DNA from: Archangium lipolyticum
Lineage (GTDB): Bacteria; Myxococcota; Myxococcia; Myxococcales; Myxococcaceae
Assembly (NCBI RefSeq): GCF_024623785.1
Contig: NZ_JANKBZ010000001.1
Coordinates: forward strand, 310,001-374,000
Direction of reading: 5' to 3'
Length of the DNA stretch: 64,000 bases
The position numbers were made by a program, and so were the translations under genes. Each line of letters opens with the position of its first letter. Position 1 is the first letter of the stretch. The notes under the pieces were generated by a model. The model saw nothing but the letters and a program-made list of their open reading frames with translations. It ran no database searches and was not told where the DNA came from. Positions 2,065 through 16,859 of the stretch are shown here, in pieces.

Positions 2065-3027
2065 TCAGCCCTCGCCACCCCGGTACCACGCCACCAGCTT
2101 CGTGAGCCCCTGCTCCAGCGTCACCGAGGGACGGAAGCCCGTCTCGCGCTCCAGGGCCGTCACGTCCGCGCACGTCACCTCCAGTTCCTCCGGCTGCGCG
2201 GGCCTCAACTCCACCCAGGCCTTCGTTCCCAGCCGCTCCTCCAGCAGGTCCACGAAGCGCGCCATCGTCACCGGCGCGCCCCGGCCCACGTTCAACATCC
2301 GGTACGGCGGCGCTCCCGAGGGCGGCTTGTCGAGCACCCGCACCAGCGCCTCCACCACGTCGCCCACGTACGTGAAGTCGCGCTGCATCTTCCCCTCGCC
2401 GTTCAGCACGATCGACCGGCCCTCCAGCATCGCCCGGAGGAACAGCATCGGCGCCATGTCCGGCCGGCCCCAGGGGCCATACACCGAGAACAGCCGCAGC
2501 CCCGTCACCGGCATCCCGTACTGGTGGCTGTAGACGTGCGCCATCAGCTCGTTGGCCCGCTTCGTCGCCGCGTAGAGGCTCAGCGGGCGATCCGCCAGCG
2601 CCTGCTCGGAGAAGGGCACCGGCGTTCCCATCCCGTACACCGAGCTCGACGAGGCGAACACCACGTGTCCCACCCTCGCCTGCCTGCACCGCTCCAGCAC
2701 CTGCAGGAAGCCCGTGACGTTCGTCTCCGTGTAGTCGTGCGCCTCGGCCGCCGTCGCGCGCACCCCCACCCGCGCCGCCAGATGCACCACCCGCTCCGGC
2801 TTCGCTTCCTCGAACAGCTCCCGGCACGACTTCTCGTCGCGGATGTCCATCCGGTGGAAACCGAACCTCGGCGCCGCCCTCAGCCTCGACAGCCTCGTCG
2901 CCTTCAGCGTCACGTCACCCGACGCGTCCAGGTTGTCCAACCCGATGACCGTGTCGCCTCGCGCGAGCAGCCGCTCACATACGTGGTACCCGATGAAGCC
3001 CGCTGCGCCCGTGACGAGCACCTTCAT
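2065..3027 (-). CDS. NAD-dependent epimerase, UDP-glucuronate 4-epimerase-like
   Basis: 320 codons from ATG 3027, which starts right at the family N-terminus MKVLVTGAAGFIG (NAD-binding GxxGxxG). Further family marks are NLDASGD after the second strand, FASSSSVYG (catalytic Ser/Thr strand), the YAATK catalytic Tyr-Lys pair and YGPWGRPDMAPMLF, a stretch typical of UDP-glucuronate 4-epimerases. The likely reaction is C4 epimerisation of a UDP-sugar for surface polysaccharide; the exact sugar is inference. It lies 94 bp downstream of the FAD-oxidoreductase gene, with a palindromic repeat in the gap, so co-transcription with that run is possible but unproven. Confidence 0.85.
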   Translation of the reverse strand: MKVLVTGAAGFIGYHVCERLLARGDTVIGLDNLDASGDVTLKATRLSRLRAAPRFGFHRMDIRDEKSCRELFEEAKPERVVHLAARVGVRATAAEAHDYTETNVTGFLQVLERCRQARVGHVVFASSSSVYGMGTPVPFSEQALADRPLSLYAATKRANELMAHVYSHQYGMPVTGLRLFSVYGPWGRPDMAPMLFLRAMLEGRSIVLNGEGKMQRDFTYVGDVVEALVRVLDKPPSGAPPYRMLNVGRGAPVTMARFVDLLEERLGTKAWVELRPAQPEELEVTCADVTALERETGFRPSVTLEQGLTKLVAWYRGGEG

Positions 3028-3074
3028 GACATCCACTCCATTGCTTCCAGGGTGACGGGAGTGCTGAGGGGAGA

Positions 3075-3107
3075 CCCTCACCCCGACCCTCTCCCAGAGG
3101 GAGAGGG
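3075..3107. repeat. REP-like palindromic element, copy 1
   Basis: CCCTCACCCCGACC followed by the near-perfect palindrome CCCTCTCCCAGAGGGAGAGGG. The same element recurs at 16984-17016 with one base changed (CCCCGGCC). It sits between two minus-strand genes, as REP-type repeats often do, and would form a stable hairpin in RNA. Confidence 0.75.
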
Positions 3108-3121
3108 GACATACCACCGAG

Positions 3122-4483
3122 TCAGTCCTCGATCCGCGTTTCGAGAAAGGGTTTCTGCCGGCTCCGCCAGACTCGGGAACTCGCACCTTCCACGAGCAAT
3201 CTCCCTACCTCCAAACCCGCCGCGCACGCGTGGTGTACGTTGTCGTGGACGAACAGAGCACCGCGACCCAATGGGTAGAGCCCGTCCACCTCACTCAATG
3301 CATTCAACGCACGCGCCCGTGCTTCGGCGAAGCCCTTGCGGTACAGCGGATAGGCCGTCGCCATGCGCCGCACCTGGGCCCCGAGGATGTCCACCCCCGC
3401 CAGCCCTGTCCGCGCCAGCGCCGGACGCACCCGCTCCGTGAGCTCCTCCGGTGACGCACGCCAGATGGCGTCTCCCACCGCGCACGGCAGATCGAAGCCC
3501 ACCACCGTCCGCCCCGCCGGACCCGCTCCACCCAGGAAGTTCCGCGCCTCGAAGAGCCGGTTCGCCGGCAGGTGCTCGTCCGCGAAGTAGTGCACGTCCT
3601 GCGTCGTGCCCCGCTCCCTCGCGAGCACCAGGTACAGCAGCGTCAGGGAACGGTAGTCGAGCCCCTCGGCCGCATCCGCCCTTCCCGTCCAACCGCACAG
3701 CAACGGCAGCGGCGCCGTCGCCACCACCGACTCCGCCGGCAGCTCCCTCCCCCCCACGAGCACGGCCCGCACCCGCCCTCGCTCCACCACCAGCCCCTCG
3801 GCCGCCACCCCACAGCGCACCTCGCCACCCGCACGGCGCACGCCCTCCGCCAGTCCCTCCGCCAGCGCGCCGAAGCCGCCCTCCGGGTAGAAGTAGCGCC
3901 GCCCCGCGAACGAGCCTCCCCGCCCGAGCGCCGCGCGCACCACTCCCAGCGGGCCTCCCTTCTGCACCCGCGCCTGGCCGAGCGAGGCGTCCAGCTCCTC
4001 CGGCCGCAGTCCCCACACCTTTCTCGCCGCGGGCTCGTACAGCACTCGCGCCGCGTGCCGGCCCAGCCGCCGCGCCGCCTCCGCCCCGAAGTGGTTCCCC
4101 TCCGGAGGACGCAGCCGCGCCACCACCGCCGACAGCCCGTGCCTCGCCACCTCGGCGAGTCCCAGTCCTCTCGCGATTCCCAGCAGCGACAGCGGATAGG
4201 GCAGCCTCCGCCCATCCACGTGCACCATGCCGCTGCGTGCCCTCACCTGGAGCGCGCCGCCCAGGGCCGCCCGGTAGAGCGCCAGCACCTCCGGCCCCGC
4301 CGCCTGGTGCAACCGGTGCGGGCCGTAGTCCACCTTGAAGCCCGCCACGTCGAACGAGCCCGAGAGTCCTCCCACCCGCTCGGACGCCTCGAGCACCACC
4401 ACCCGCCTGCCAGCCTGGACGAGCGCGTGCGCCGCGGCCAGCCCCGAGGGCCCCGCGCCAATCACCACCGTCGCCGCGCTCAC
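3122..4483 (-). CDS. NAD(P)/FAD-dependent oxidoreductase (protoporphyrinogen oxidase / amine oxidase fold)
   Basis: 453 codons. GTG 4483 is chosen because it overlaps the stop of the upstream glycosyltransferase (GTGA) and places the Rossmann motif VVIGAGPSGLAAA at residues 6-18. The second FAD segment (ERVGGLSGSF, then VDYGPHRLH) is typical of flavin oxidoreductases related to UDP-galactopyranose mutase and HemG-like proteins. A C-terminal GLYPLGRGALFVHDNVHHA segment fits the FAD-closing motif. Translationally coupled to a GT2 glycosyltransferase, it may oxidise a sugar or lipid carrier; the substrate is unknown. Confidence 0.8.
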   Translation of the reverse strand: MSAATVVIGAGPSGLAAAHALVQAGRRVVVLEASERVGGLSGSFDVAGFKVDYGPHRLHQAAGPEVLALYRAALGGALQVRARSGMVHVDGRRLPYPLSLLGIARGLGLAEVARHGLSAVVARLRPPEGNHFGAEAARRLGRHAARVLYEPAARKVWGLRPEELDASLGQARVQKGGPLGVVRAALGRGGSFAGRRYFYPEGGFGALAEGLAEGVRRAGGEVRCGVAAEGLVVERGRVRAVLVGGRELPAESVVATAPLPLLCGWTGRADAAEGLDYRSLTLLYLVLARERGTTQDVHYFADEHLPANRLFEARNFLGGAGPAGRTVVGFDLPCAVGDAIWRASPEELTERVRPALARTGLAGVDILGAQVRRMATAYPLYRKGFAEARARALNALSEVDGLYPLGRGALFVHDNVHHACAAGLEVGRLLVEGASSRVWRSRQKPFLETRIED

Positions 4484-5205
4484 CCCGTGCCTCCCACGGC
4501 TGGCAGCTCCAACGCCGCGAGTGCTCCCGGCGCCCGGCCCTCGCGCAGCCAGCCGATGCCTCGCGCCACCGTACGGCCCATGAGCCAGGTGTCCCGCACC
4601 GGCCTCCACTTCGAGCGGCCCACGCGCGCGTGGTACGCGATCGGCAGGAAGACGATGGGATCTCCCGCCGCCGCCAGCGCCAACGTCAGCGTCGTGGTGA
4701 GCGAGAAGCGATCCGGCAACACCGGCGCGAGGGACAGCAGATCCGCCGTGCGCAGCACCCGCAGGCCCGAATTCAAATCCGGCGCCTCGAAGCCGCCCAG
4801 CCACCGCACCGCGCCCCGGAAGAGCGCCTTCACCGCCGAGCGCGCGAAGGGCTCGGCGGCCCCGAGCTTCGGCCGGGCGCCGATCGCCTGCCGCGCGCCA
4901 CTCCGCACCGCCGCCACCAGCTCCGGCAACGCCGCCTCCGGGTACGTGCCGTCCGCGTCGAGCAGCGCCAGCAGCGGGCCCCGGGCCTGGGCGGCCCCGG
5001 CCTTGATCGCCGCGCCGTAGCCCACGCCCGTCAGGGTCAGCACCCGCGCCCCGGCCTCACGCGCCACCTCGCCCGTGCCGTCCCGCGAGCCATCGTCCAC
5101 CACGAGGATCTCGTGCGCCTCCCCCGCCAGCGACTCGCCCACCCTTCGCACCACTCCAGCGATGGCGCGTACCTCGTCGCGAGCGGGGATGACGACGCTG
5201 ATCAT
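4480..5205 (-). CDS. family 2 glycosyltransferase
   Basis: 241 codons from ATG 5205, which overlaps the stop of the preceding membrane-protein gene (ATGA); the next gene begins inside this gene's stop. GT-A marks are VVIPARDEVRAIAGVV at the N-terminus, VVDDGSRDGT (nucleotide-sugar binding) and LLDADGTYP (the DxD-like metal site). DLNSGLRV resembles dolichyl/polyprenyl-phosphate sugar synthases. It has no clear membrane helix and is probably cytoplasmic, at the inner face. It likely transfers a sugar from an NDP donor to a lipid carrier; donor and acceptor are inferred only from fold. Confidence 0.85.
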   Translation of the reverse strand: MISVVIPARDEVRAIAGVVRRVGESLAGEAHEILVVDDGSRDGTGEVAREAGARVLTLTGVGYGAAIKAGAAQARGPLLALLDADGTYPEAALPELVAAVRSGARQAIGARPKLGAAEPFARSAVKALFRGAVRWLGGFEAPDLNSGLRVLRTADLLSLAPVLPDRFSLTTTLTLALAAAGDPIVFLPIAYHARVGRSKWRPVRDTWLMGRTVARGIGWLREGRAPGALAALELPAVGGTG

Positions 5206-5792
5206 CCCGTCGCCGTCTCCGGAGTTTGCACTGGCCGCCACATCTCCCACAGCGGCCACACCAGCATCGGCAACCACCCCACCGCCGCCCCCACCACCGA
5301 CACCGGCATCAGCCAGCCCCACTGGGGCCCCACGAAGCGCACCAGCAACGGCGCCAGCAGGTGCACGAACGTCGCCACCGAGGCCACCGTGATGGTGCCC
5401 ACCTTCAGCCGCGTGGACAGCGCCGTCAGCATGAACAGGTGGCCCACGATGAGCAGCACCACCGGCACCGTGAACAGGTGGAAGTGGAACGTCTCCATCA
5501 CCTGCCTCGCGGGCTTCTCCAGCCGCATGGGCGCGGCCGCCACCGTCTCCTCGGGCAGCTCCAGCGCCGGGCCTCCCTCCGCTTCCACCGCCGCGGGAGC
5601 GGGCGCGGCGGCCGTGGCTCCACCCCGGTAGTACTCGACCGTGCCCTGCCCGGACAGGTTTCCGAACGAGTCCGCGTACAGCCACGCCGAGGACACGAAG
5701 CCCAGCACCAGGAACAGCAGGAACCCGGTGTAGAGGACGCGGGCCTCCAGCGAGAGGCGGGTGATGGGAAACGGACGGGCGAACTGGCGCAC
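5202..5792 (-). CDS. four-helix membrane protein with intramembrane histidines, unknown function
   Basis: 196 codons. Predicted helices lie at about 18-39, 98-122, 126-148 and 155-178, with a Pro/Ala-rich loop (residues ~57-95) between helices 1 and 2. Histidines cluster in helices 2 and 3 (FHFHLF, VGHLFM, FVHLL), which would suit haem or metal ligation; this is inference. No family is recognised with confidence. It starts 7 bp after the FMN-binding protein gene and overlaps the GT2 gene by 4 bp. Its neighbours suggest an electron-transfer membrane partner for the flavoprotein. Confidence 0.65.
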   Translation of the reverse strand: MRQFARPFPITRLSLEARVLYTGFLLFLVLGFVSSAWLYADSFGNLSGQGTVEYYRGGATAAAPAPAAVEAEGGPALELPEETVAAAPMRLEKPARQVMETFHFHLFTVPVVLLIVGHLFMLTALSTRLKVGTITVASVATFVHLLAPLLVRFVGPQWGWLMPVSVVGAAVGWLPMLVWPLWEMWRPVQTPETATG

Positions 5793-5799
5793 GAGCGGG

Positions 5800-6390
5800 C
5801 TATCCCTTCGACACAGCGCCGGGCTTCTTGAGGATGAGCTCGTCCAACAGGATGAGCGCGCGGCGCACGCCCACCGCCATCGACCTCGACGAGATGGTCG
5901 CCCCCGTCACCACGTCGATGTCCTCCCCCGCCCGCACCGCGTCCTTCGCCGTCTTCCCCTGGAACTGGCGCCGGAAGCGCGCGTCGGTGATCTCCTCACC
6001 GTACTTCTCCCGGTACACCATCACCTCGTGCCGCTCGACCACGCCCTCGGGCGACAGCTTCACCGCGAAGGTGATCTGCTCGTGCTGCCCGAGCTCCTCG
6101 TCAATGATCGCGTAGCCGTCCACGTGCTCCCCCGTGGTGGCCACGAAGATGACGTACTCGGGCTTCGCCGGCTTGTACCCGAGCCGCCCCTGCAACGCGG
6201 CCAGCTCGGCCGGGCCCGGCTTCACCTTGCGGAAGGAGACCCGCTGGCTCTTGGGGAAGAACTCCTTGAGCACCTGCGGCGTGGTGAAGTACGTGGCCGC
6301 TGCCTCCGCGGGCAGCGATGCCCCCATCCACAACCACACCGCCAGCGCCAACGAGAAGTGCTTCACGGGCCATCCCCTTACCACGCTCAT
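5800..6390 (-). CDS. exported FMN-binding domain protein with covalent-flavin motif
   Basis: 196 codons from ATG 6390, overlapping the stop of the lipoprotein gene (ATGA). Residues 1-31 are a signal peptide with a hydrophobic core (LALAVWLWMGASLPAEA). The C-terminal FMN-binding domain carries D159-V-V-T-G-A-T165, matching the D-x-x-S/T-G-A-T consensus at which ApbE links FMN through a phosphoester to the last Thr. An apbE gene lies divergently at 10745, so substrate and enzyme are in one locus. It should be a periplasmic single-electron or hydride carrier, related in principle to NqrC/RnfG and flavinylated reductase subunits. Confidence 0.88.
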   Translation of the reverse strand: MSVVRGWPVKHFSLALAVWLWMGASLPAEAAATYFTTPQVLKEFFPKSQRVSFRKVKPGPAELAALQGRLGYKPAKPEYVIFVATTGEHVDGYAIIDEELGQHEQITFAVKLSPEGVVERHEVMVYREKYGEEITDARFRRQFQGKTAKDAVRAGEDIDVVTGATISSRSMAVGVRRALILLDELILKKPGAVSKG

Positions 6391-6908
6391 GGCAACTCCC
6401 GAACCGCTTGGACGACGGCCTGCCTGACATGCGAGCGCCAATCCGTCCGCGCGCGATAGAGATTCTCCGTGGTGGCACCCCGGCGCTCACCGTTCGACAG
6501 CACCTGGCCATCCGGTCCCACCATCATCGACTCCAGCTCCACCTCGGCCCGGCCGAGCGGCTGCAGCGCGGACAGGTCCAACCGGGTCAGCACCAGCACC
6601 ACCGCCGCCTCCGCTTTGTACTGGCGCGCCAGCCCCGCGGCCTGCTCCACCGTGGGCGCGGGCCCCAGCAGCGACTCCGCCGCCACCACCTCGTAGCCGC
6701 GCGAGCGCAGGGCCTCGGCCCCCTCGCGCGCCACGACGTCGCGCGGCTCCTCTCCGCCAAACACGTCTCCGACGACCCCTCGTGGCGCTGGCTTCGACAC
6801 CGCCGATGCGCCCACCACGACGACGCGCGATGGAGCCCCCGCGGGCCGTTTGGGCGTGGCACAGGCGGCGGTGAACAGCACGACGGTGGCGAGAAAGAAG
6901 GCGCGCAT
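6387..6908 (-). CDS. small lipoprotein, unknown function
   Basis: 173 codons. The start MRAFFLATVVLFTAAC gives a classical lipoprotein signal with Cys16. The mature part has a VVVVGASAV strand, a VLVLTRLDLSAL strand and a positively charged C-terminal helix, in general shape like small secretin- or Tol-associated lipoproteins with a Rossmann-like half domain. No family was recognised. It starts 14 bp after the barrel gene and overlaps the FMN-binding protein gene by 4 bp, so it is part of the same transcript. Confidence 0.7.
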   Translation of the reverse strand: MRAFFLATVVLFTAACATPKRPAGAPSRVVVVGASAVSKPAPRGVVGDVFGGEEPRDVVAREGAEALRSRGYEVVAAESLLGPAPTVEQAAGLARQYKAEAAVVLVLTRLDLSALQPLGRAEVELESMMVGPDGQVLSNGERRGATTENLYRARTDWRSHVRQAVVQAVRELP

Positions 6909-6922
6909 CGGTTCCCCGGCTT

Positions 6923-8314
6923 TCAAAAGAGGTAGGCCACGCTGGCCATGAAGTTCCAGTGGCCCTCGCTCCAGAAGTCGCGGGACCACGCATGCGGCAT
7001 CTGTCCATCTCCGCCGCTCTTCTCCCAGAAGAAGCTCGTCTTGAGAACGTAGGGCGGCAGCGGCCGGAAGTTCAGGCCGAGCGTCAGCCGCGACACATCT
7101 CCCGCGGTGACGAACTCCGTGTCGGTGTCCTTCTCCTCGTAGCGGAGCGAGGCGGTGAAGTGGCCGTCGTGCCACTCGTCCGGGAGCAGCCGGAAGAAGG
7201 GCTCGATGCGGAAGCGGTAGTTGGCCTGCCCGTAGAAACCGAACATCCCCGTCGGCACCCGGTCCCGGGTGTTGGCCGTCGAGCCATCCGGGAAGCCCTG
7301 CACATAGCCGGGATCGATGAACGCGCGCACCACCTCGCCCGTGAGATCCCACGCGCCCAGACGCCAGAAGACATCCGCATTGACCATGTTCACCCGGCGG
7401 CCCTCGAGGTCATACGCCCCCGTGTAGCCGGACAGGCCCGCCTCCAGCCCCAGGAAGGGCGAGACGGAGACGCGGCCGGTGACGGCCTTGTCGTCGTTGT
7501 TGTCCTCCAGGTGGCTGCCGCGCGCCGCTCGGAAGCCCTGGCCATCGAGGATCTTCGCGTCGAGGCCGTTGACCGCGTACACCTCGTAGGACAGCCGCCA
7601 GTCCCGCCCCAGATCGAAGCCTCCGAGGAAGCCCGCGCCGGACTCGAACCAGGTGGTGGGCACCACCGTGGTGTATGCGATGGGCCGCTCGGGCAGTTCC
7701 TGCGCCGGCGCGTCGTGCCGCAGGTTGTACGCGCCTACGGGCATGAGGATGACGCCGGCCCGGAAGGTGAGCCAGTCCGTCAGCATCAGGTCCACCACGG
7801 AGAACTCGAGCAGCACCTCGCCCGCGCCCAGGACGCCATCGCGCTTGAGCGGACTGCCCGCGAACTCGAACTCGATCTCCGTCGCCGTGGAGATGCGCTC
7901 GGAGATGTGGCTGTAGACGAAGAGTACGTACCGGTGGTTGCGGAACGTGCTCTTGCCCTGCTCCGGCACGATGAAGTCGTGCTCGGCGTAGCCGCCCAGC
8001 GTCGTCCGGTCGAGGATGGCCGCCGCCCGCTGCGTCAGCGTGGTGGTCGGCTGGAGCCGCTGGTTGAAGGTCTCCTGGGCCGACTCGCCGGGTGTCTCGG
8101 CATTGGGCGCCGGGGGCGTCGTGCCCGTGGCGGCTGGATCCTCCAGGCCCTCCAGATCCAGGCGCGGGCCCTCCTCCTGCTTCGGTTGCTCCTCCTGGGG
8201 TACTCGGGGAGCGTCCGACGCTGGCTTCTCGGGCGTGGAGCCCTCGTCTTGCGCCAGACCGGTCAGGGGCGCGAGCAGCAGGGACAGGAGGATGAGGGGG
8301 AGGCGGCGCGGCAC
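6923..8314 (-). CDS. outer-membrane porin-like beta-barrel
   Basis: 463 codons. GTG 8314 is preferred: CCGGAG precedes it and it gives a clean signal peptide (MPRRLPLILLSLLLAPLTGLAQ); an in-frame GTG 18 bases upstream is the alternative. Residues ~22-95 are acidic and Pro-rich. After this come amphipathic strands with many aromatics (GGYAEHDFIV, FGFYGQANYRFRIEPFF) and a terminal Phe, as expected for a BAM-inserted barrel. Its shape recalls phosphate-selective (OprO/P) porins, but specificity cannot be read. It sits in the minus-strand run with redox lipoproteins, suggesting transport of the substrate of that system. Confidence 0.75.
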   Translation of the reverse strand: MPRRLPLILLSLLLAPLTGLAQDEGSTPEKPASDAPRVPQEEQPKQEEGPRLDLEGLEDPAATGTTPPAPNAETPGESAQETFNQRLQPTTTLTQRAAAILDRTTLGGYAEHDFIVPEQGKSTFRNHRYVLFVYSHISERISTATEIEFEFAGSPLKRDGVLGAGEVLLEFSVVDLMLTDWLTFRAGVILMPVGAYNLRHDAPAQELPERPIAYTTVVPTTWFESGAGFLGGFDLGRDWRLSYEVYAVNGLDAKILDGQGFRAARGSHLEDNNDDKAVTGRVSVSPFLGLEAGLSGYTGAYDLEGRRVNMVNADVFWRLGAWDLTGEVVRAFIDPGYVQGFPDGSTANTRDRVPTGMFGFYGQANYRFRIEPFFRLLPDEWHDGHFTASLRYEEKDTDTEFVTAGDVSRLTLGLNFRPLPPYVLKTSFFWEKSGGDGQMPHAWSRDFWSEGHWNFMASVAYLF

Positions 8315-8400
8315 GGTGGCTCCGGAAGTCACGCGGAGGAAGAGAGCGAGGCCAGAGGCGCGTCGAGCCCTGGCCGGAGGATGGGTTTCTGGACGCGGGC

Positions 8401-9099
8401 TCACTGGCCGGTCTCGGAGCTCACGCAGCGGCCGCGCAGACACGTCCTGCCCGTGGCGCAGTGGATGTCCTTCTCGCAGCACACGCCCAGGCAGGTGCAG
8501 CACACGGTGCCCTCGGGCTGGGTGCCGGCCAGGCACTCGGCGGACGCGACACAGTTGGGTGGATCCACGCACACCACCGCCTTGGGCGCATTCGACTCGC
8601 CGACGTACGTGACCGTGCCGTAGTAGGAGTCCACCACCTTGCGGCCCGGCTCGCCCATGTTGGTGTCGAAGTACTCGTAGGCTCCCGGCGTGGGGAACGC
8701 GTAGCGCCAGTAGGAGTACGTCTCCTTGCCCTCGGTGCGGACGTTGTAGGGCTTCACCAGGTTGGGGCTGAAGAGCGCCGCGGGCGCCGACAGCGACGTG
8801 ACGTTGGTGGGCACCTCGGGCTGGTAGTTGCGGAACTCGACGACCTGCCCCGGCAGGATGGACAGGCCTCCCGCCGGCTGGATGTCCATGGGCTCTCCCG
8901 TTGCCGTGCGCAGGGTGTACTGCTGCCCGATGCACGCGGGCGCGATGGCGCGGTAGAGGCCGGCGGTGATGCGGTTGAGGGACACGGAGACGCGAGGGTT
9001 TCCCTTCGCCGACTCCTGAACGGGCCGGAAGTCCTCGGGGACGGGGCCCTTGCAGGCGGCGAGGCAGAGCGCGAAGGCGAGGATGAGACGAGCGCGCAT
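8401..9099 (-). CDS. Cys-rich lipoprotein with cupredoxin-like region
   Basis: 232 codons. ATG 9099 shares one base with the TGA of the upstream membrane-protein gene (TGATG). The lipobox is ALCLAAC, with Cys16. Residues ~75-165 (GQVVEFRNYQP ... YAFPTPGAYEYFDTN) look like a cupredoxin-type beta-sandwich, but the usual copper Cys is not obvious, so metal binding is unsure. The last ~65 residues hold about eleven cysteines in close spacing (VCCTCLGVCC), a disulfide- or metal-rich module. It is coupled to the GT-C-like gene and is followed by an 86-bp gap before the porin gene. Confidence 0.7.
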   Translation of the reverse strand: MRARLILAFALCLAACKGPVPEDFRPVQESAKGNPRVSVSLNRITAGLYRAIAPACIGQQYTLRTATGEPMDIQPAGGLSILPGQVVEFRNYQPEVPTNVTSLSAPAALFSPNLVKPYNVRTEGKETYSYWRYAFPTPGAYEYFDTNMGEPGRKVVDSYYGTVTYVGESNAPKAVVCVDPPNCVASAECLAGTQPEGTVCCTCLGVCCEKDIHCATGRTCLRGRCVSSETGQ

Positions 9100-10586
9100 C
9101 AGAGGACTTTCTGCGGACGGACCGGCGGCGCGGGCCGGTAGTGGAAGAGGATGATGTCGTGAGCGTGCGAGCGCACGCGCCGGTCGCACGCGAAGCGCGA
9201 GACGGGCTCCAGGTGGGCCGCGAGCGCCTCGACTCCGGGAGCGGTGGAGGTGACGTAGACGTCCGCACCCGCCGCGGCCACGCGCTCCACCTCGCGGCGC
9301 AGCTGCTCGCCCGTGGCCGGACGGCCGGCGCGGTAGTGGGGCACGTAGTGCTCGAAGAGCCGCGCCTCCTCGCCGGTGAAGAGCAGCGTGCCGGATGGAG
9401 GCAGCGTGCGGGACACGTGCGACACCAGGCGCGCGGCGGGAGAGGGCTCGCGGCCCTGCTCGAGTGCCACCGGCAGCATCACCCCCAGGGTGGCCACGGT
9501 CAGCGCCCCGGCCAGGGGGAGGAGCACCCGGGGAGGACTCGTGCGCGCGAGCACCGCCACGCCCACCGCCACCAGCAATGCCAGCGACAGCACCACGGGC
9601 AGGGCGTGACGTGCCTTGAGCAGGTTCTGCCCGAGGAACATCCACGCGCCATAGGGGACGCCGAACGCCAGGGCCAGCAGCGTCACGCGTCGCTCGGTGA
9701 CGGACAGGCTCCCCAGCAGCGCCGCGCGGGCGAGCGCCACGAGCGCCCCAGCCAGTCCCAGTGCCAGGAGGAAACGAGCGGTCAGCAGGATGGCGGAGTC
9801 ACCACCCATGCCGGGCCAGGGCAGCCCGAGGCCCGCGGCCACGATGTCGAACCCGAAGTTCTCCAGGCGCCAGCCGAGCTCCGGGCGAACGGCCACGGTA
9901 CCGCCCCACTCGCCCGTGTGGCCGCGCAGGAAACCCGAGCCGATGCGCAGGAGATCCGCCGGGCCGGTGAGAGCAACCATCGGGAGGAGCCAGGCTCCCA
10001 CGCCGAGCCCGCTGCCCAGAAACGCCGCCAGCCGCCGTCCGCGAGGCACCACCAGGGCGAGTCCGAGCAACGCCGGGAGGAACGAGGGCCGGGCCCCGAG
10101 CGCCAGGCCAGTCATCACGCCCGCGAGCACTGCCGCCCGAGGCGAGGAGTCACCTACCAGCACGGCACAGGCCGCGAGCACCAGAAGCGCGAGCCCCACC
10201 CCATCCGAGCCGGGCGTAGCACCGAAAAGGACCGGGAGGGGAAGCAGCGCCAGCAGGGCCGAGGCCGCCAGGGCCCCGGTCACTCCGAGGTACGGCCGCA
10301 GGACGAGACCCAGGGCACCGATGGCCACCGCCCCGAGCACGACGCCAGGCAGGGCCAGTGCCACTACCTCTTGTGCACCGGCGGCCGAGGCCAGCCGGGC
10401 CATGGCCACGTACACGGGGTAGCCGGGAAAATGAGGGGCCTGCGCCGCCAGGTCGAAGCCGTGAAGAGAGCGAGCGAAGTTCACCGCGTCGAGGTCCGGC
10501 AGGAGCCGGGGCAACGCGAGCACTCGCGCCGCCACTCCGGCCCCTGTCAGCAATGCCAGGGCCACGGCGAAGACACGAGGTGTCAT
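9099..10586 (-). CDS. polytopic membrane protein, GT-C / DUF2723-like
   Basis: 495 codons from ATG 10586, preceded by AGGGG. It has about ten to twelve hydrophobic helices and a soluble C-terminal ~110 residues. The N-terminal loop between helices 1 and 2 carries LPDLDAVNFARSLHGFD followed by HFPGYPVYV. This acidic loop is seen in GT-C lipid-linked sugar transferases such as DUF2723, PMT and ArnT, with Asp as catalytic base. A membrane glycosyltransferase using a polyprenyl-phosphate sugar is likely. It is the first gene of the minus-strand run facing apbE, about 50 bp from the Fur-like box. Confidence 0.7.
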   Translation of the reverse strand: MTPRVFAVALALLTGAGVAARVLALPRLLPDLDAVNFARSLHGFDLAAQAPHFPGYPVYVAMARLASAAGAQEVVALALPGVVLGAVAIGALGLVLRPYLGVTGALAASALLALLPLPVLFGATPGSDGVGLALLVLAACAVLVGDSSPRAAVLAGVMTGLALGARPSFLPALLGLALVVPRGRRLAAFLGSGLGVGAWLLPMVALTGPADLLRIGSGFLRGHTGEWGGTVAVRPELGWRLENFGFDIVAAGLGLPWPGMGGDSAILLTARFLLALGLAGALVALARAALLGSLSVTERRVTLLALAFGVPYGAWMFLGQNLLKARHALPVVLSLALLVAVGVAVLARTSPPRVLLPLAGALTVATLGVMLPVALEQGREPSPAARLVSHVSRTLPPSGTLLFTGEEARLFEHYVPHYRAGRPATGEQLRREVERVAAAGADVYVTSTAPGVEALAAHLEPVSRFACDRRVRSHAHDIILFHYRPAPPVRPQKVL

Positions 10587-10636
10587 GGACCCCTGCACCA
10601 CCGCATCCGGTGCACCCCTCGATAAATGAATGAAAT

Positions 10637-10651
10637 TGAGATTCATTCTCA
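10637..10651. promoter_or_regulatory. Fur-box-like operator between divergent genes
   Basis: TGAGATTCATTCTCA differs by one base from a perfect 7-1-7 inverted repeat of the Fur type (TGAGAAT-N-ATTCTCA). The surrounding palindrome is ATTGAGA-N5-TCTCAAT at 10635-10653. The block 10621-10675 is strikingly AT-rich for this genome. It lies 51 bp from the start of the minus-strand run and 94 bp from apbE, so one site could control both. Ferric uptake regulation is inferred from the motif alone. Confidence 0.6.
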
Positions 10652-10744
10652 ATAATCGCACATTTGAATACTATGGCCTGGGACAGGCGGTCAACGAGAG
10701 GACCCCTGGCACCAGTAGGCGCTCTCATGGGACAGAGGGAGGCC

Positions 10745-11758
10745 ATGATGCTGAGTGCCCTGCTGGTGGTTCTGGCCGCCGCACCCGCGCCGAGGGTCCG
10801 CACCGAGACGCGCCCGATGATGGGGACGACGGTGACAGTGACGCTGGTGGGAGGCACGGCGGAGAAGGCGCGCGAGGGTTTCGACGCGGCGTTCTCGGCC
10901 TTCGAACGCGTCAACCAGGTGATGAACGAGTGGCGCCCGGACAGCGAGCTGTCGGCGGTGAACCGCAAGGCGGGAGACGGGGAGTTCGTGACGGTTCCCG
11001 AGGATCTGTGCGCGGCGCTGCGGCACGGAGTGCAGGGATCGGAGCAAACGGGCGGGCTGTTCGATCCCACGTGGGCAGCGCTGCGGGGGATGTGGCGCTT
11101 CGGGACGGACCTGACCCCCGCCCTACCGGACCCGGCCGAGCTGAAGAAGCGATGCGAGCTCATCTCGTACAAGGACCTGGAGTTCGCACCGGTGGGGGAC
11201 GGAGGCGATACAGGGTGCGCGGTGCGGCTGAAGCGCGCGGGGATGCAGCTCGGGCTGGGAGGGCTGGCGAAGGGCTGGGGCGTGGACCAGGCGGTGAAGA
11301 AGCTACGAGGGCTCGGGTTCAACGACTTCTTCGTGCAGGCCGGGGGTGACTTCTACGCGGCGGGGAAGAAGGCGGGCCGGCCGTGGAAGGTGGGCATCCG
11401 GGATCCGCGTGGAGAGCGGGACAGCGTCTTCGCGGTGCTCGAGGTCTCCGACGCGGCGTTCTCGACGAGCGGCGACTACGAGAACTTCTTCGTCCTGGAT
11501 GGGAAGCGCTACCACCACATCATCGATCCACGGACGTGCTACCCGGCGAACGCCTCGCGTTCAGCGACGATCCTCGCGCCGAACGCGGTGGATGCGGAGG
11601 TGCTGACGAAGTCCGTGTTCATCCTCGGAGGCCAGGAGGGACTGGCGCTCGCGGAGAAGTTCGGCGCCTCCGCCGTGGTGGTGACGGCGGAAAACCAGGT
11701 ATTGGTGTCGCCCAGGCTGGAGAAGAAACTGAAACAACCAAGGCCCATGACACCGTGA
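10745..11758 (+). CDS. apbE: ApbE family FAD:protein FMN transferase
   Basis: 337 codons from ATG 10745 (ATG 10748 is equally good; AGGGAGG at 10736-10742 serves both). The N-terminus is hydrophobic (MLSALLVVLAAAPAP), so the enzyme is exported, as ApbE usually is. Family signatures in order: PMMGTTVTVTL, GGLAKGWGVDQAV, VQAGGDFYAAG, then FSTSGDYENFF and YHHIIDPRTCYPA, which form the FAD and magnesium site. It moves FMN from FAD onto Thr/Ser of exported flavoproteins. The FMN-binding protein at 5800-6390 carries the target motif and sits in the divergent run across the same Fur-like box. Confidence 0.93.
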   Translation: MMLSALLVVLAAAPAPRVRTETRPMMGTTVTVTLVGGTAEKAREGFDAAFSAFERVNQVMNEWRPDSELSAVNRKAGDGEFVTVPEDLCAALRHGVQGSEQTGGLFDPTWAALRGMWRFGTDLTPALPDPAELKKRCELISYKDLEFAPVGDGGDTGCAVRLKRAGMQLGLGGLAKGWGVDQAVKKLRGLGFNDFFVQAGGDFYAAGKKAGRPWKVGIRDPRGERDSVFAVLEVSDAAFSTSGDYENFFVLDGKRYHHIIDPRTCYPANASRSATILAPNAVDAEVLTKSVFILGGQEGLALAEKFGASAVVVTAENQVLVSPRLEKKLKQPRPMTP

Positions 11759-11905: not shown

Positions 11906-13450
11906 ATGCTACCGGACATGAGGAGCACCACTTCACTGCTGCGCATGGCCCTGGCCTTGAGCTTCGCCCTTGCCGCCGCGTGTGTCACCTCGCGAGCGCA
12001 GATTCCGGTAGACGGTGGTCAGCAACAAGCACAGGCTCCGTCACACATCTCCCATCGCTCGGAAGCTTCCCAGAGCGTGCCCCATTGGGCGAGCGCACTT
12101 CCCACCGCTGACCATCAGGCGCGGGCAACAACGGGTGGACTCATCTGGGCCGATCCCCTGCCCGTGCTCATCCACATTCTACCCGGTGGTCGATTACGGC
12201 TCGCATTGCCTGCGTTGGCGCCCCACCCCGATTCGGAGAAGCTGAGCCTGAACGAGGTACGTCCACTACGTGTGGCCTTCGATTCCTTCCAACCACGTAT
12301 TGGTCCCCGACTGAGACTGATGATGGAGTCCTCAGGAGCGATCGGAGCGGGCCCAGTGCCCACCGCCCCTTGGGAACTACGGTTACGCGAGGACTTCCTC
12401 TCCCAGTTCGGCCCGTCGCTCCTCCCCATACCCGAGTCCCTGGAGACGAGCCGCCTCTATCTCGCGCTCAAGCTTTCTACCCGTTACATGGACGACGGCA
12501 TCCGCGAGGCCGCCCAAGAACTCTTCAGCGCCCCGGCCTTCCTGGCCAGCGTCTCACTCTCGGTGCTGGTGTACTTCGCCGCCTGGCTGGCCCCGGAGCC
12601 CCTCTTCTCCAAAGCATTCGCCGCCGCTCTCACCGTGCGCCTGTCGTTGCTGGTTGGGGTGGTGGAGTTGAGCCGTCTGGCCATGGCGTGCTTGCGCCTG
12701 TACCAGGAGGCCGAAGCAGCCAATACGCCCCAGGAACTGGAGGCAGCATCCGAGCGCTTCGGCAAGTCGCTGGGCGGCACGCTCCTACGGGTGCTGGTGG
12801 TGGTGGCCAGTCTCGGAGTTCCCCAGGTGCTCCCCAAAGTGCCGGAGGGCGGCGTCTGGACCCTGCTGAGCCCCCTGCGCCATGCACCCGCAGGTGGTCC
12901 GGCCCTCCAGTCCGTTGCCACGACCCAGATCGTGGCTGACGGGACCCTGGTCGTCACCGGGGTGGCCGCGGGCACCTCCGCCACGGCGCTTTGCGGTGAG
13001 CTCGCCACCTGCGCGATCATGGATGGTGCAGGTGGCACCTCTGGCGGCGGCCCGAAGCTCTCCACCCGCTATGGCAAGCCCCACACCCGGCAGAACCCGC
13101 CACATAACGAAGCCATCGAGCAGGAATTGGCCAGACGCGAGGCTGCTGGACACACCGGTCTGAGGAAGAACAAGCCGCAGTTGAATGCCGAGGGCAAACC
13201 ACTTGACGACCCGGCACTGGCAGGGGGTGTTCGCTTCCGCAAACCGGATGTCTCCTCGGTCCGGCCCGATGGGGTGCGGCACAACACCAACTACGTTTCG
13301 AATTCTCGGGACATGCAGCGTGAGTTGGATGCCTTCGAGGCCATGCTGCGGGCTGACAGGTCGGCCATCCACGAATTGTATCTGCTCGATGGAACCCTGG
13401 TTCGCCGCTACGTACCTCCAGGTGTCAGCTTCCCTTTGACGAACAGGTAG
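11906..13450 (+). CDS. SitA-like lipoprotein polymorphic toxin
   Basis: 514 codons from ATG 11906, with GAGGG six bases upstream. Residues 1-26 form a lipoprotein signal (LLRMALALSFALAAAC). The middle (residues ~190-330) has hydrophobic helices (FLASVSLSVLVYFAAWLAPEP and a long RLSLLVGVVEL segment) that recur in myxobacterial SitA toxins, which pass between cells through TraA/B-dependent outer-membrane exchange. The C-terminal ~135 residues after GGGPKLSTRYGKPHTR are hydrophilic, His/Arg-rich and likely the toxic domain (nuclease-like, inferred). The HEAT-repeat gene three bases downstream is the probable immunity gene. Family assignment rests on remembered SitA architecture. Confidence 0.65.
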   Translation: MLPDMRSTTSLLRMALALSFALAAACVTSRAQIPVDGGQQQAQAPSHISHRSEASQSVPHWASALPTADHQARATTGGLIWADPLPVLIHILPGGRLRLALPALAPHPDSEKLSLNEVRPLRVAFDSFQPRIGPRLRLMMESSGAIGAGPVPTAPWELRLREDFLSQFGPSLLPIPESLETSRLYLALKLSTRYMDDGIREAAQELFSAPAFLASVSLSVLVYFAAWLAPEPLFSKAFAAALTVRLSLLVGVVELSRLAMACLRLYQEAEAANTPQELEAASERFGKSLGGTLLRVLVVVASLGVPQVLPKVPEGGVWTLLSPLRHAPAGGPALQSVATTQIVADGTLVVTGVAAGTSATALCGELATCAIMDGAGGTSGGGPKLSTRYGKPHTRQNPPHNEAIEQELARREAAGHTGLRKNKPQLNAEGKPLDDPALAGGVRFRKPDVSSVRPDGVRHNTNYVSNSRDMQRELDAFEAMLRADRSAIHELYLLDGTLVRRYVPPGVSFPLTNR

Positions 13451-13453
13451 GAG

Positions 13454-14437
13454 ATGACCCGCGCGATGGACATGAAGCAGTTGCGAGACGAACTGGTAGA
13501 CGCATGCGCCTGGGGAGAGGAGGAGCGAGCGCGCGCACTGGTTTCAAGAATTGGTGAGCAGCCCCGTCGGGCAAGGACCTTGCTGGATTCCATGCTGAAG
13601 GACCCTGATGCTCGAGTACGTCAGGCAGCAGCCTTCGGTCTGGGTGTGCTTGGCGGAGCGGCCAGTGCCAGGCGCCTGGAGCAGCAACTCGCCATCGAGG
13701 AGGCCCGGAGTGATTACGACGGAGAGTCCGTGGTAGAGGCCATCGTCAGCGCACTGGGTCGTATCGAGGAGACGAGCGTACGAGCCCCCCTGGTGCGCAG
13801 GCTGGAGAGATTGGCCGAGGATACGCCAGAGCCTGGGGATGTGTTTCCGGTGGTGCACGCTCTTTGGAAGCGACGCCACCCGGAGCTGTTGCCTGTCGTT
13901 CGGCGGAGCCTGGAGAAGTTGATCCCGGCTCGCTACAAGAGCCTGCAGGGCCTGCTCGTGCTCCTGGAGAAGACGCCTGAAGAGCTTCGCACCTGGGCTA
14001 TCGACCCTTCCATTCCCGTGGAGCACAAGACGGGCGTCATCAACGTGCTCGAAGAGGAACTGCCAGCAGAACAGCTCTCGACCCTCCCCTCGTTCATCTC
14101 CGCCGCCCGCACCTTGCTCGCAAACGCGGCAGGCCAGCGGGATGAACGAGATCCGGTCGCGTACTACTGCGAGTGCCTCGCGTCACTGCTGTTGCGGCAC
14201 AAAGAGCAGGTCCTGCCCGCCCTCCCCGAGGAGACTCGTTCCGAGCTGCGCGATCTGGCTCGGAAGCTGATTGTCGTCACCGCTCCCAACAGTTCCCTCC
14301 GAGCCGCAGTGCTGCTCCAGCTCATCGGCCAGCCGGAGGATGCAGCCCTCATCGAGGCACACCGTCCGGCGGAGCCGACTCTGGCCAAGGTTTTCGATGA
14401 TGCCGTACGAGCGCTGCGCCACCCTCGGAAGGAATGA
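13454..14437 (+). CDS. HEAT-repeat protein, probable immunity partner of the SitA-like toxin
   Basis: 327 codons; GGTAGGAG directly precedes ATG 13454, and in-frame ATGs at 13466 and 13472 are alternatives. It is all-alpha with HEAT-type repeats early on (DPDARVRQAAAFGLGVLGGAASARRL, then VVEAIVSALGRIEETSVRAPLVRRLE). No signal peptide is present, so it is cytosolic. It starts three bases after the toxin-like gene and is therefore co-expressed. In Sit loci the gene in this position encodes the immunity protein, and that role is inferred from position; HEAT scaffolds can also bind other partners. It converges with imuB, leaving 17 bp. Confidence 0.65.
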   Translation: MTRAMDMKQLRDELVDACAWGEEERARALVSRIGEQPRRARTLLDSMLKDPDARVRQAAAFGLGVLGGAASARRLEQQLAIEEARSDYDGESVVEAIVSALGRIEETSVRAPLVRRLERLAEDTPEPGDVFPVVHALWKRRHPELLPVVRRSLEKLIPARYKSLQGLLVLLEKTPEELRTWAIDPSIPVEHKTGVINVLEEELPAEQLSTLPSFISAARTLLANAAGQRDERDPVAYYCECLASLLLRHKEQVLPALPEETRSELRDLARKLIVVTAPNSSLRAAVLLQLIGQPEDAALIEAHRPAEPTLAKVFDDAVRALRHPRKE

Positions 14438-14454: not shown

Positions 14455-15966
14455 TCAGTCGAACAGGCCCTGTAGATAGAAGCGGCCGTCCCTCGCGTCC
14501 CTGAACACCCACGCCGGGCCCAGCCCCTCGAAGTGCACACGGTAGTAGTCCCGGCTGTACGGCCTCGCGTCCCACCAGTCCCCGCTCAGCCTCTCCGGTC
14601 CCACCAGCGCCATCACCCGGCGTCTCCGTCCTCCGAGCCTCGCCGCCAGCAGCTCCCCCGCCGCCGTCATCTCCACGTCGATCGTCGTTGGCTTCGTCAG
14701 CACCCGCGAGGGCCGCTCCCGCAGCACCTCCGGCACCGGCTCCGCTTCCTCCACCGACTGGAGCAGCTCGCCCTCCAGGCCTCGCCGCATGGGCGGCGGC
14801 CGGAACGTCTGGGTCCCATACGCGTCTTCGGGCCGGTGCGTGTCCTCCAGCGACGCCATGAAGAGCGAGTCCTCGCCCAGCGCCGTCGCCAGACGAGAGA
14901 GCACCACCTCCAGTGCCGCGTCACCCTCGGGCGCGTCCCCCAGTGACAGTTGCTGGCCCCGGTCCTCGCAGTCCTCCTCCACCCGGAGGATCAGCCCCGC
15001 CACCGGGCCCTCGAGCCTCACGTCCGACAGCCGGTGTCTCGTCAGATCCAACAGCATCTTCGACTGCGCCGTCGGCCTCGCCAGTGTGAGCGGCACCACC
15101 GCCTGCCCCGAGGGGTCCAGCTTCAACGTGAGGTTCAGCCGCACCGCCGCCCGCCTCCGGCCCCCCAACCGCCCGCACAGCCGATCCAGCACCGTCTTGA
15201 GCGCGAACTGCAGCGGCTCCAGCGACTCGGCCGGCCACTCCAGCGTCAGCCGCTCCTCCAGCACTTCCTCCAGCACCTCCGCGATGAACGGCGTCTCATC
15301 CCCGCCCCGGCATCGCGTGTGCGCCCTCATGCCCGCCGCGCCTCCTCGCGCCGTCACCGCTCCCACCGGCAACGCCGCCACCTCCCCCAACGTCGTCAGC
15401 CCGAGCGCCGCGAATGCCGTCTGCTCCGGTCCCTCCAGCGCTCCCAGCGGCAGCGGGGCCAGCGCCCGCGCTCCCTCCCCTTCCGCCACCACGTCCATCC
15501 GCTTCGCCCCGTGCCTCGCCAGCGTCCTCGCCGTGAACTTCTCCGAGGCCACCACCACCCTCCCCCTCCACCCGTGCTCCGAGCACTGCGCCAGTACCTT
15601 CGCGCACAGCCCCTCCTCCCCGTTCGTCAGGTTCGCCGCCCCCGCGTCGAACCACAGCCCGTCCGGCTCCGACACCTGGAAGCCCGGCGCCAGCCCCATC
15701 AGCATTTCGCCAATGCCCACCAGCGCCCGCCTCTCCTCCTCGGGCCGGTAGGGGAAGTGTTTCAGCGACGGCTCCAGCGCGTTCGCCGCCGTCAGCGTCA
15801 TCCCCGCCTTCACCCCCGCCTTCAGCGCGCTCGTGGACGCGCACGCCACCCGCTGCTGCCCTCGCACCTCCTCCACCAGCACGAACGGCTTGCCCGAAAG
15901 CTCCGGCAGCTCGATCACCTTGCGCTGCACCGGAAAGCGCGGAAAGTGCAGATACCCCAGCCTCAT
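14455..15966 (-). CDS. imuB: ImuB, inactive Y-family DNA polymerase of the mutasome
   Basis: 503 codons. The Y-family polymerase fold is clear: an N-terminal LHFPRFPVQR, then VACASTSALKAGVKAGMTL, and a palm/fingers region with GLWFDAGAANL. The acidic catalytic residues of true Y polymerases (the N-terminal D-x-D and the S-x-DE site) are missing at the matching places, as in ImuB. ImuB is a clamp-binding hub that joins ImuA and the error-prone polymerase DnaE2 during SOS mutagenesis. It follows imuA by 21 bp on the same strand; no dnaE2 is in the window. Expression should be damage-induced through the palindrome upstream of imuA. Confidence 0.88.
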   Translation of the reverse strand: MRLGYLHFPRFPVQRKVIELPELSGKPFVLVEEVRGQQRVACASTSALKAGVKAGMTLTAANALEPSLKHFPYRPEEERRALVGIGEMLMGLAPGFQVSEPDGLWFDAGAANLTNGEEGLCAKVLAQCSEHGWRGRVVVASEKFTARTLARHGAKRMDVVAEGEGARALAPLPLGALEGPEQTAFAALGLTTLGEVAALPVGAVTARGGAAGMRAHTRCRGGDETPFIAEVLEEVLEERLTLEWPAESLEPLQFALKTVLDRLCGRLGGRRRAAVRLNLTLKLDPSGQAVVPLTLARPTAQSKMLLDLTRHRLSDVRLEGPVAGLILRVEEDCEDRGQQLSLGDAPEGDAALEVVLSRLATALGEDSLFMASLEDTHRPEDAYGTQTFRPPPMRRGLEGELLQSVEEAEPVPEVLRERPSRVLTKPTTIDVEMTAAGELLAARLGGRRRRVMALVGPERLSGDWWDARPYSRDYYRVHFEGLGPAWVFRDARDGRFYLQGLFD

Positions 15967-15987
15967 GTCCGTTCCCCTCCCCTCGCC

Positions 15988-16842
15988 TCAGTGCATCGCC
16001 GAGCCCGCTTCCAGGCTCGACCGCAGCGACGGCATCGGCACGTCACGTCCCGGCCGCTGCCCCATGATTCCCCGGTGGCCCTCGCGCGGCGTCTCCTCCC
16101 TCGGGAGCTCCGGCACCGTCACGTCCTCCGCCGACAGCAGCTCCGCTCCCCACGGGGACTCGTCGTCCCTCAGCTCCGGATAGAGCGCCTTCCACGGCAC
16201 CAGCGTCCTCGCCCCGATTCCCCCCTGCCGGCTCCGCACCACCTCCACCGACAGGCCCGCGTCACCTCGTGACTCCGTCCGCAGCCTCATCATCCCGTCC
16301 CCGGGCGCCTCCGGCGCCGTCAGCAGCACCAGCAGGCTCCCCCCTCGCACCGCCGCGTCCATCAGCCGCTTGCCCTCCGCTGGCGACAGCCGCACTCCTC
16401 CCTCGCCCCTCCCCGCCGGGCCCCGCGTCAGATCCAGCACCACGCACGCGAACGCCCCGCTCCTCACCAGCTGCACCGCCGACCACGCCAGTTGTTCCAC
16501 CGTCTTCGGCCGCACGATCAGCAGCCGGGTGGGATCCACCCCCGCCGCCACCGCCGCCGGCGGGTAGAGCTCCCCCGGGCCATCCACGTACGCGCATAGG
16601 CGCCCTTCCCGGTGCGCCGATGCCACAGCCCTCAGCGCCAGGCTCGTCCTCCCCGACGCCGCCTCCCCCCATAGCTCCACCACCTGCCCCAACGGCAGCC
16701 CTCCCCCAGGTAGCAGCCCGTCGAAGGCCTCCACCCCCGTCCGCAGCGTCGCCAGGTACTGTCTCGGCGCCGCCTGCAACCGGCGGATCTGCTCCCTCAG
16801 GGCCTCCACCGTCACCGACACCTTCTCGGCCGTCGCACTCAT
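15988..16842 (-). CDS. imuA: ImuA, RecA-like mutasome protein
   Basis: 284 codons from ATG 16842 (an in-frame GTG at 16845 is the alternative). It has the short RecA-like core of ImuA: LRTGVEAFDGLLPGGGLPLGQ, then the P-loop-like GEAASGRTSLAL and a Walker-B-like strand FACVVLDLTRG. The 3' part (residues ~230-284) is hydrophilic and variable. ImuA acts with ImuB and DnaE2 in damage-induced translesion synthesis. A LexA-type palindrome lies 18 bp upstream of the start, so this is the first gene of an SOS operon. Confidence 0.87.
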   Translation of the reverse strand: MSATAEKVSVTVEALREQIRRLQAAPRQYLATLRTGVEAFDGLLPGGGLPLGQVVELWGEAASGRTSLALRAVASAHREGRLCAYVDGPGELYPPAAVAAGVDPTRLLIVRPKTVEQLAWSAVQLVRSGAFACVVLDLTRGPAGRGEGGVRLSPAEGKRLMDAAVRGGSLLVLLTAPEAPGDGMMRLRTESRGDAGLSVEVVRSRQGGIGARTLVPWKALYPELRDDESPWGAELLSAEDVTVPELPREETPREGHRGIMGQRPGRDVPMPSLRSSLEAGSAMH

Positions 16843-16859
16843 CACGTCCCTCGTCCCAC

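Follow-up and report, generated by a model that had tools for sequence, protein, structure and literature searches.

The apbE locus and its predicted Fur box

We analysed a window of 64,000 nucleotides of the Archangium lipolyticum genome (contig NZ_JANKBZ010000001.1, positions 310,001 to 374,000), in which apbE lies beside a set of envelope genes that probably form a Fur-controlled, flavin-based iron system. Within this 12.6-Mb genome, apbE (10745..11758, plus strand), encoding an FAD:protein FMN transferase (PF02424, 5e-79) with a signal peptide by our own reading, is divergent from a run of eight minus-strand genes, and a predicted Fur box, TGAGATTCATTCTCA (10637..10651, no strand assigned), lies between them. 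Leftwards from the box, the run encodes a GT-C type, PMT_2-like membrane glycosyltransferase (9099..10586), a Cys-rich lipoprotein (8401..9099, lipobox by our own reading), a porin-like outer-membrane barrel (6923..8314), a small lipoprotein (6387..6908, TAAC lipobox, likewise our reading), an RnfG-like FMN_bind protein (5800..6390; PF04205, 2.4e-8; signal peptide by our reading), a four-helix membrane protein that we call TM4 (5202..5792), a GT2 glycosyltransferase (4480..5205), which overlaps TM4 by 4 bases, and an FAD-dependent oxidoreductase of the amine oxidase/PRK07208-like type (3122..4483), at which the tightly packed run ends. Adjacent genes overlap or stand fewer than 90 bases apart. 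An NAD-dependent epimerase (2065..3027, minus strand) follows after a 94-base gap, and its operon membership is uncertain. The preliminary description of this DNA had reported a Fur-type palindrome and a divergent envelope gene run beside apbE; both are confirmed here and recur in relatives, and the small lipoprotein, GT2 and the FAD oxidoreductase are run members that it had not named.

The box at 10637-10651 extends to a 17-bp palindrome, TTGAGA-ttcat-TCTCAA. The GT-C start (ATG at 10586) lies 51 bp downstream of it, and the likely apbE start (ATG at 10745), where by our reading a signal-peptide-like stretch begins, lies 94 bp away on the other side; the longest apbE open frame begins earlier, with a TTG at 10664. 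A search of the genome with the pattern TGAGAWTNAWTCTCA, which was derived from the window box itself and matches it without mismatches by construction, returned five sites at no more than one mismatch, and a reversed-pattern control returned none. The other four sites, with one mismatch each, all lie at siderophore or TonB-receptor genes. One adjoins a TonB siderophore receptor, an Fe2+-dependent (YbiX-type) dioxygenase and a membrane protein that we read as PepSY-like, a label that the NCBIfam search did not give; one lies upstream of a 2,3-dihydroxybenzoate (DHB; myxochelin-type) biosynthesis run with DhbA, DhbC and a DHB-AMP ligase; and two lie in a siderophore cluster (G000:C47:36600-50200, locus L070) with an SbnF-like synthetase, a pyridoxal phosphate (PLP) decarboxylase and a TonB receptor. 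Two Fur-family proteins are encoded in the genome, and the locus has its predicted box in common with siderophore genes of the same genome, as a member of a Fur regulon should. Because the other best sites adjoin iron genes, 10637-10651 is, by context, a predicted Fur box, and the Fur control proposed earlier is strengthened by these sites and by boxes upstream of the run in relatives. In Myxococcus xanthus, FurA is described as a repressor of myxochelin genes in the available part of PMC11388931. A scan for promoters and terminators, not used as evidence, gave a single sigma-70-like site where 0.4 were expected and three terminator-like sites where 3.1 were expected.

The flavoprotein, TM4 and the outer envelope proteins

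The genome encodes a single ApbE and a single FMN_bind protein, both at this locus, as would befit the dedicated enzyme-substrate pair suggested earlier. The FMN_bind protein carries a TGAT flavinylation motif with T165 as the predicted acceptor threonine; among its homologues, 23 of 26 have [S/T]GA[S/T] and three have GST, and their alignment matches RnfG (PDB 9eri_G, 2.3e-13). With apbE near an exported substrate that bears the motif (the signal peptide by our own reading), the locus is an ApbE-flavinylation-associated gene cluster, and from the motif and the one-to-one pairing we infer that ApbE would flavinylate T165. Within the order, the FMN_bind protein was found in 31 of 145 genomes, the window genome counted; ApbE is present in 28 of these and TM4 in 28. 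Thirteen order genomes (G048, G131, G133, G134 and nine others) have ApbE and lack this FMN_bind protein. A Riemerella ApbE in an iron-restriction table was set aside, as the available part of the source (PMC5609570) gives no gene context.

The AlphaFold2 model of TM4 (pLDDT 85.8) consists of four long helices, and the protein carries H103, H105, H118 and H144. Among 60 homologues, H105 is present in 60 and H103 in 56, forming an HxH signature, while H118 is found in 48 and H144 in 31; this is the His-rich four-helix membrane protein of the preliminary description. The window copy could be assigned to none of the families in Pfam, NCBIfam or the PDB. Its 60 homologues showed no consistent Pfam or NCBIfam family, any match being confined to one or two members. 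The best of these, Claudin_2 (3.5e-4) and DUF2871 (4e-4) in Pfam and an antiporter subunit (1e-5) in NCBIfam, were taken as noise or leads. For DUF2871 (PF11070), the window copy gave no match at E<=1, and the best flavobacterial relative scored 20.7 bits versus a cut-off of 27.4. A sequence search against the PDB returned no relative (best 0.0045). Foldseek gave 28 fold matches, none at E<=0.001, and VIA-align a best Z of 6.6 to ordinary helical bundles. DUF4405, FezC and PepSY chains were not among the fold matches, which excludes nothing.

In 13 loci (L047-L055, L057-L059 and L061; 12 of family f3, plus L048), a TM4 paralogue stands beside TM4. All 13 paralogues keep H103, have Gly or Ser at position 105 and have lost H118, and the eight main copies aligned with them all keep H105 and H118 and have lost H103. 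These complementary histidines suggest one site split between two chains, and hence dimerisation; TM4 may act as a dimer with a site shared between its chains. With the split-histidine paralogues, cofactor binding by such a small membrane protein can be studied as a natural experiment.

The porin-like barrel exceeds the curated Porin_O_P (PF07396) cut-off only marginally (21.3 versus 20.9 bits; 1.9e-4), and 14 of 31 porin homologues match PF07396 at E<=0.01. Of two assignments made earlier, the barrel is retained on this marginal match, and the GT-C protein, with PMT_2 at 6e-5, remains below the cut-off. The small lipoprotein has no family. The Cys-rich lipoprotein has 13 invariant cysteines in 10 of 10 aligned rows, and no alignment column has His in more than six of the 10 homologue rows. 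Type-1 copper (cupredoxin) sites are built from two His and one Cys. The cupredoxin-like identity given to this protein in the preliminary description was abandoned, since it has no conserved His for a copper site and no Pfam or NCBIfam match. A PDB search returned four matches at E<=10 (best 0.012), none credible, and with a mean pLDDT of 43 the AlphaFold2 model could not be used. The lipoprotein occurs in 11 of 195 phylum genomes and TM4 in 37 of 195.

Recurrence of the gene order, the box and iron-gene neighbours

We fetched 30 further FMN_bind loci of the order, of which L060, a real Rnf operon, was dropped from the counts after gene-order comparison, leaving 29. The Archangium-type run with divergent apbE is found in L033-L040; it is kept in seven of these loci and, as far as the sequence goes, in L037, whose short contig begins within the porin. 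In L041 and L042 the run is kept and includes one additional gene, encoding 342 aa, and GT2 is kept in all ten loci, L033-L042. In most of the remaining order loci, porin and FMN_bind have at least one of TM4 and ApbE close by. Across the 29 loci, porin is present in 27, TM4 in 27 and ApbE in 23, and the recurring core is porin, FMN_bind and TM4, with ApbE joining it in part of the loci. GT-C stays beside the lipoprotein in relatives, and a weak lipoprotein relative with GT-C also occurs in two distant loci from metagenome-assembled genomes (MAGs), L122 and L151, in the order GT-C, lipoprotein, extra gene, porin, FMN_bind, TM4.

The inserted protein of ~342 aa lies between porin and Cys-rich lipoprotein in L041 (L041:11608-12636), L042 (L042:10224-11261), L122 and L151, whereas the Archangium runs lack it; its L041 copy has no Pfam match. 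Beyond apbE, window positions 11906-14437 encode a 514-aa protein and then one of HEAT-like type. L033 retains the latter (90%), and the best match there to the 514-aa protein covers 34 residues only; the pair may be toxin-immunity-like, which is a guess. Two genes at 14455-16845 resemble ImuB and ImuA, of the DNA damage mutagenesis cassette, by their translations.

A further set of 79 named loci was reduced by six duplicates (L112, L113, L114, L150, L156 and L160) to 73. The trio of porin, FMN_bind and TM4 is complete in 18 of these, FMN_bind occurs with TM4 in 49 and porin with FMN_bind in 25, some loci being cut by contig ends. By the taxa labelled in the records, which are mostly MAGs, the full trio is found in Myxococcota, Gemmatimonadetes, Calditrichota and Flavobacteriaceae; Nitrospirae and WOR-3 records add the FMN_bind-TM4 pair by itself. 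In the flavobacterial loci L159 and L169, a related-looking exported protein of ~308 aa precedes FMN_bind in the place of the porin, and in L159 a TonB receptor is divergent to it.

The box was scored within 300 bp upstream of the run, with a maximum of 14, at 26 of the 30 fetched loci (L037, L060, L062 and the short L057 were left out). It scored at least 12/14 at 18 of the 26, compared with 1 of 385 control promoters, which belong to gene starts on 40 segments picked arbitrarily from related genomes, and 22 of the 26 loci beat dinucleotide shuffles at p<=0.05. Many of the 26 loci, including those of the same genus, are close relatives and do not represent 26 independent events. Gene order and box, whose conservation the preliminary description had proposed as a check, both recur in relatives.

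Iron genes recur beside the core. In L047 (genus g31 of family f3, apparently Anaeromyxobacter-like), the order is fur, feoB, a 72-aa protein, a DtxR/FeoA fusion, porin, FMN_bind, TM4 paralogue and TM4, with apbE opposite. FeoB, counted only above 120 bits with a homemade profile, occurs in 8 of the 29 order loci versus 0 of 40 controls, and Fur in nine of the 29 (the eight FeoB loci and L041, where a fur gene lies near the head of the run) versus 1 of 40 controls. Among the 73 further loci, FeoB is near three (L131, Myxococcales; L168, Planctomycetota; L174, Kordia), Fur near two (L143, deltaproteobacterial; L164, Planctomycetota) and a TonB receptor near 15, which are flavobacterial. The order in the Kordia MAG is FMN_bind, TM4, a 73-aa protein and FeoB, and in the Planctomycetota MAG FeoB stands ahead of porin and FMN_bind. 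The iron link proposed earlier is reinforced by a core that lies behind fur, feoB and dtxR/feoA in one genus and by FeoB or Fur beside parts of it elsewhere.

A proposed iron-reduction route and its relation to known systems

The box, gene order and neighbours described above are observed features of these loci, and we consider it probable that they reflect a Fur-controlled, iron-starvation-induced envelope redox system for flavin-based ferric reduction and uptake. When iron is plentiful, Fur bound to the box would silence apbE and the run, and when iron is short both would be expressed. Exported ApbE would join FMN to the only FMN_bind protein, at T165. TM4 may be an unrecognised electron donor of the inner membrane that passes electrons to the flavoprotein, perhaps from quinol via haem b held on conserved histidines of a TM4 dimer. 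In the periplasm the flavoprotein would reduce ferric iron. Iron complexes or Fe(II) would cross the outer membrane through the co-regulated porin, and a ferrous transporter would import Fe(II), namely FeoB where present and another one in Archangium. The Archangium-type version would add the Cys-rich lipoprotein and the GT-C/GT2 pair, perhaps as a surface-exposed or glycosylated partner. More tentatively, TM4 could represent a further class of donor for flavinylated proteins, dimeric and His-rich (perhaps haem-b), with the HxH signature, feeding an RnfG-like flavoprotein and a dedicated porin in a Fur-controlled ferric-reduction and uptake route, the dimer having turned into an unlike pair in 13 loci.

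Several observations weigh against this reading. Four of the 26 box-tested loci (L045, L046, L055 and L061) fail against shuffles in the tested stretch, although boxes were found close by in L045, L046 and L061, and in the further set, where 66 of 73 loci could be tested and seven had no scorable region, only 17 beat shuffles (3.3 expected), L151 with its GT-C/lipoprotein version among them. ApbE is absent within 18 kb in L041 and L042, lies elsewhere in G143 and is split over two contig ends in G084. In G046, of the same genus, ApbE, FMN_bind, TM4 and the lipoprotein are all without a match; the set is therefore dispensable, and it seems to be gained or lost as a unit. No porin was seen in 16 of 17 flavobacterial loci, and no TM4 in the three Planctomycetota loci that have porin and FMN_bind. 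All eight FeoB loci of the order belong to one genus, and the Archangium genome itself lacks FeoB, with no FeoB_C match genome-wide; its FeoB_N matches (best 3e-15) were taken for other GTPases. A two-haem reading requires H118, which the Bacteroidota, WOR-3 and Calditrichota rows lack, and the TM4 fold search returned common helical bundles only.

The glycosyltransferases raise a different possibility, namely Fur-controlled envelope modification, in which GT-C, GT2, the FAD oxidoreductase and the epimerase glycosylate surface proteins and the flavoprotein gives electrons there or for lipoprotein disulfides. GT-C, lipoprotein, GT2 and FAD oxidoreductase do occur together in nine of the 30 fetched loci (ten with the cut L037), and the GT-C-lipoprotein version returns in L122 and L151. 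We nevertheless find this unlikely: most named loci and the other loci of the order have the core without those genes, and the lipoprotein is found in 11 phylum genomes versus 37 for TM4. The adjacent and co-conserved porin and periplasmic flavoprotein would also suit dissimilatory or extracellular electron transfer, with TM4, flavoprotein and porin as a conduit to external acceptors that would parallel the porin-cytochrome conduits but use flavin, Fur being merely a metal sensor. Little probability attaches to this conduit, since assimilation, not respiration, is what the Fur boxes and the nearby fur and feoB indicate, no carrier was seen inside the porin, and Archangium is an aerobe.

It is rather improbable that the ligand is another one (haem, copper, zinc or manganese) and that a Fur-family protein with another specificity is the regulator. 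The porin has no known substrate and two Fur-family proteins are encoded, but the box is common to siderophore genes, the ferrous transporter FeoB recurs beside the core, and the lipoprotein lacks the conserved His of a type-1 copper site. Chance adjacency of an ordinary apbE and box to unrelated envelope genes, for which the ApbE found elsewhere in G143 and away from the run in L042 could speak, is very improbable and is contradicted by the run with divergent apbE in seven loci, the core across phyla and the recurring boxes.

The proposed iron-reduction route can be set beside known flavinylation systems. About half of the genomes with ApbE machinery had no previously characterised system, a survey result restated in the available part of PMC11334425, and the five transmembrane classes of that survey (NapH-, MsrQ-, PepSY-, DsbD- and RNF/NQR-like) account, in the part of PMC8238504 at hand, for 3,635 of 6,230 such genomes, so that further classes may remain to be found. 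None of the five was detected among the ten proteins scanned (window 2068-11755) or among the 60 TM4 homologues at E<=0.1. The core offers a candidate partner family, unnamed in the searched domain libraries and tied to iron via Fur boxes and FeoB. The word "porin" is absent from the survey (PMC8238504) and its 2024 follow-up (PMC11334425), and a full-text literature search, whose scope excluded most subscription journals and all bioRxiv preprints, found no paper joining these parts, in line with the earlier suggestion that the system has not been described in this form.

Individual parts do resemble known systems, here compared with the available portions of the cited papers. The FMN_bind protein is like RnfG/NqrC, but a Pfam scan found no other Rnf/Nqr subunits in the run. 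P19-FTR1 iron-uptake clusters can also contain an FMN_bind protein (PMC8238504); they are mostly Gram-positive, and the run here lacks P19 and FTR1. FezC-type DUF4405 haem cytochromes (mSystems 2024, PMC11334425), a group marked by a common fold and four central His, are, like TM4, small membrane proteins with conserved histidines and a link to iron, and FezC is proposed to form its haem sites by homodimerisation. None of the 60 TM4 homologues matches DUF4405 in Pfam at E<=0.1, a result that concerns the DUF4405 profile and not FezC itself. Among the Fur-boxed porins of Geobacter metallireducens and Desulfuromonas, the psp porins are weakly like PF07396 and were suggested for ferrous iron, and another, OprB-like porin is followed by feoAB (Genome Biology 2004, PMC545781). 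Compared by description only, the psp porins and ours have weak PF07396 likeness and Fur boxes in common, but no flavoprotein, ApbE or membrane partner is named with the psp porins there.

The closest parallel lies in the PepSY-DUF2271-DUF4198-ApbE flavinylation clusters, which are Fur-repressed in Shewanella and Caulobacter and for which iron reduction and assimilation were proposed (eLife 2021, PMC8238504); the Caulobacter cluster of this type is the sole relevant point in the portions seen of the Herbaspirillum and Caulobacter iron papers (PMC6037834, PMC3751524). Both systems combine ApbE and a small membrane protein with an extracytosolic substrate for flavinylation, and both are linked to Fur. 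DUF2271 and DUF4198 were not found among the run proteins in a Pfam scan, and the system here differs in its FMN_bind/RnfG-like substrate, in a TM4 without a PepSY match and in a porin within the core. Overall, the flavin system at this locus is real and conserved, is linked to Fur and includes a membrane component without a name; it is a variant of the flavinylation-based iron systems.

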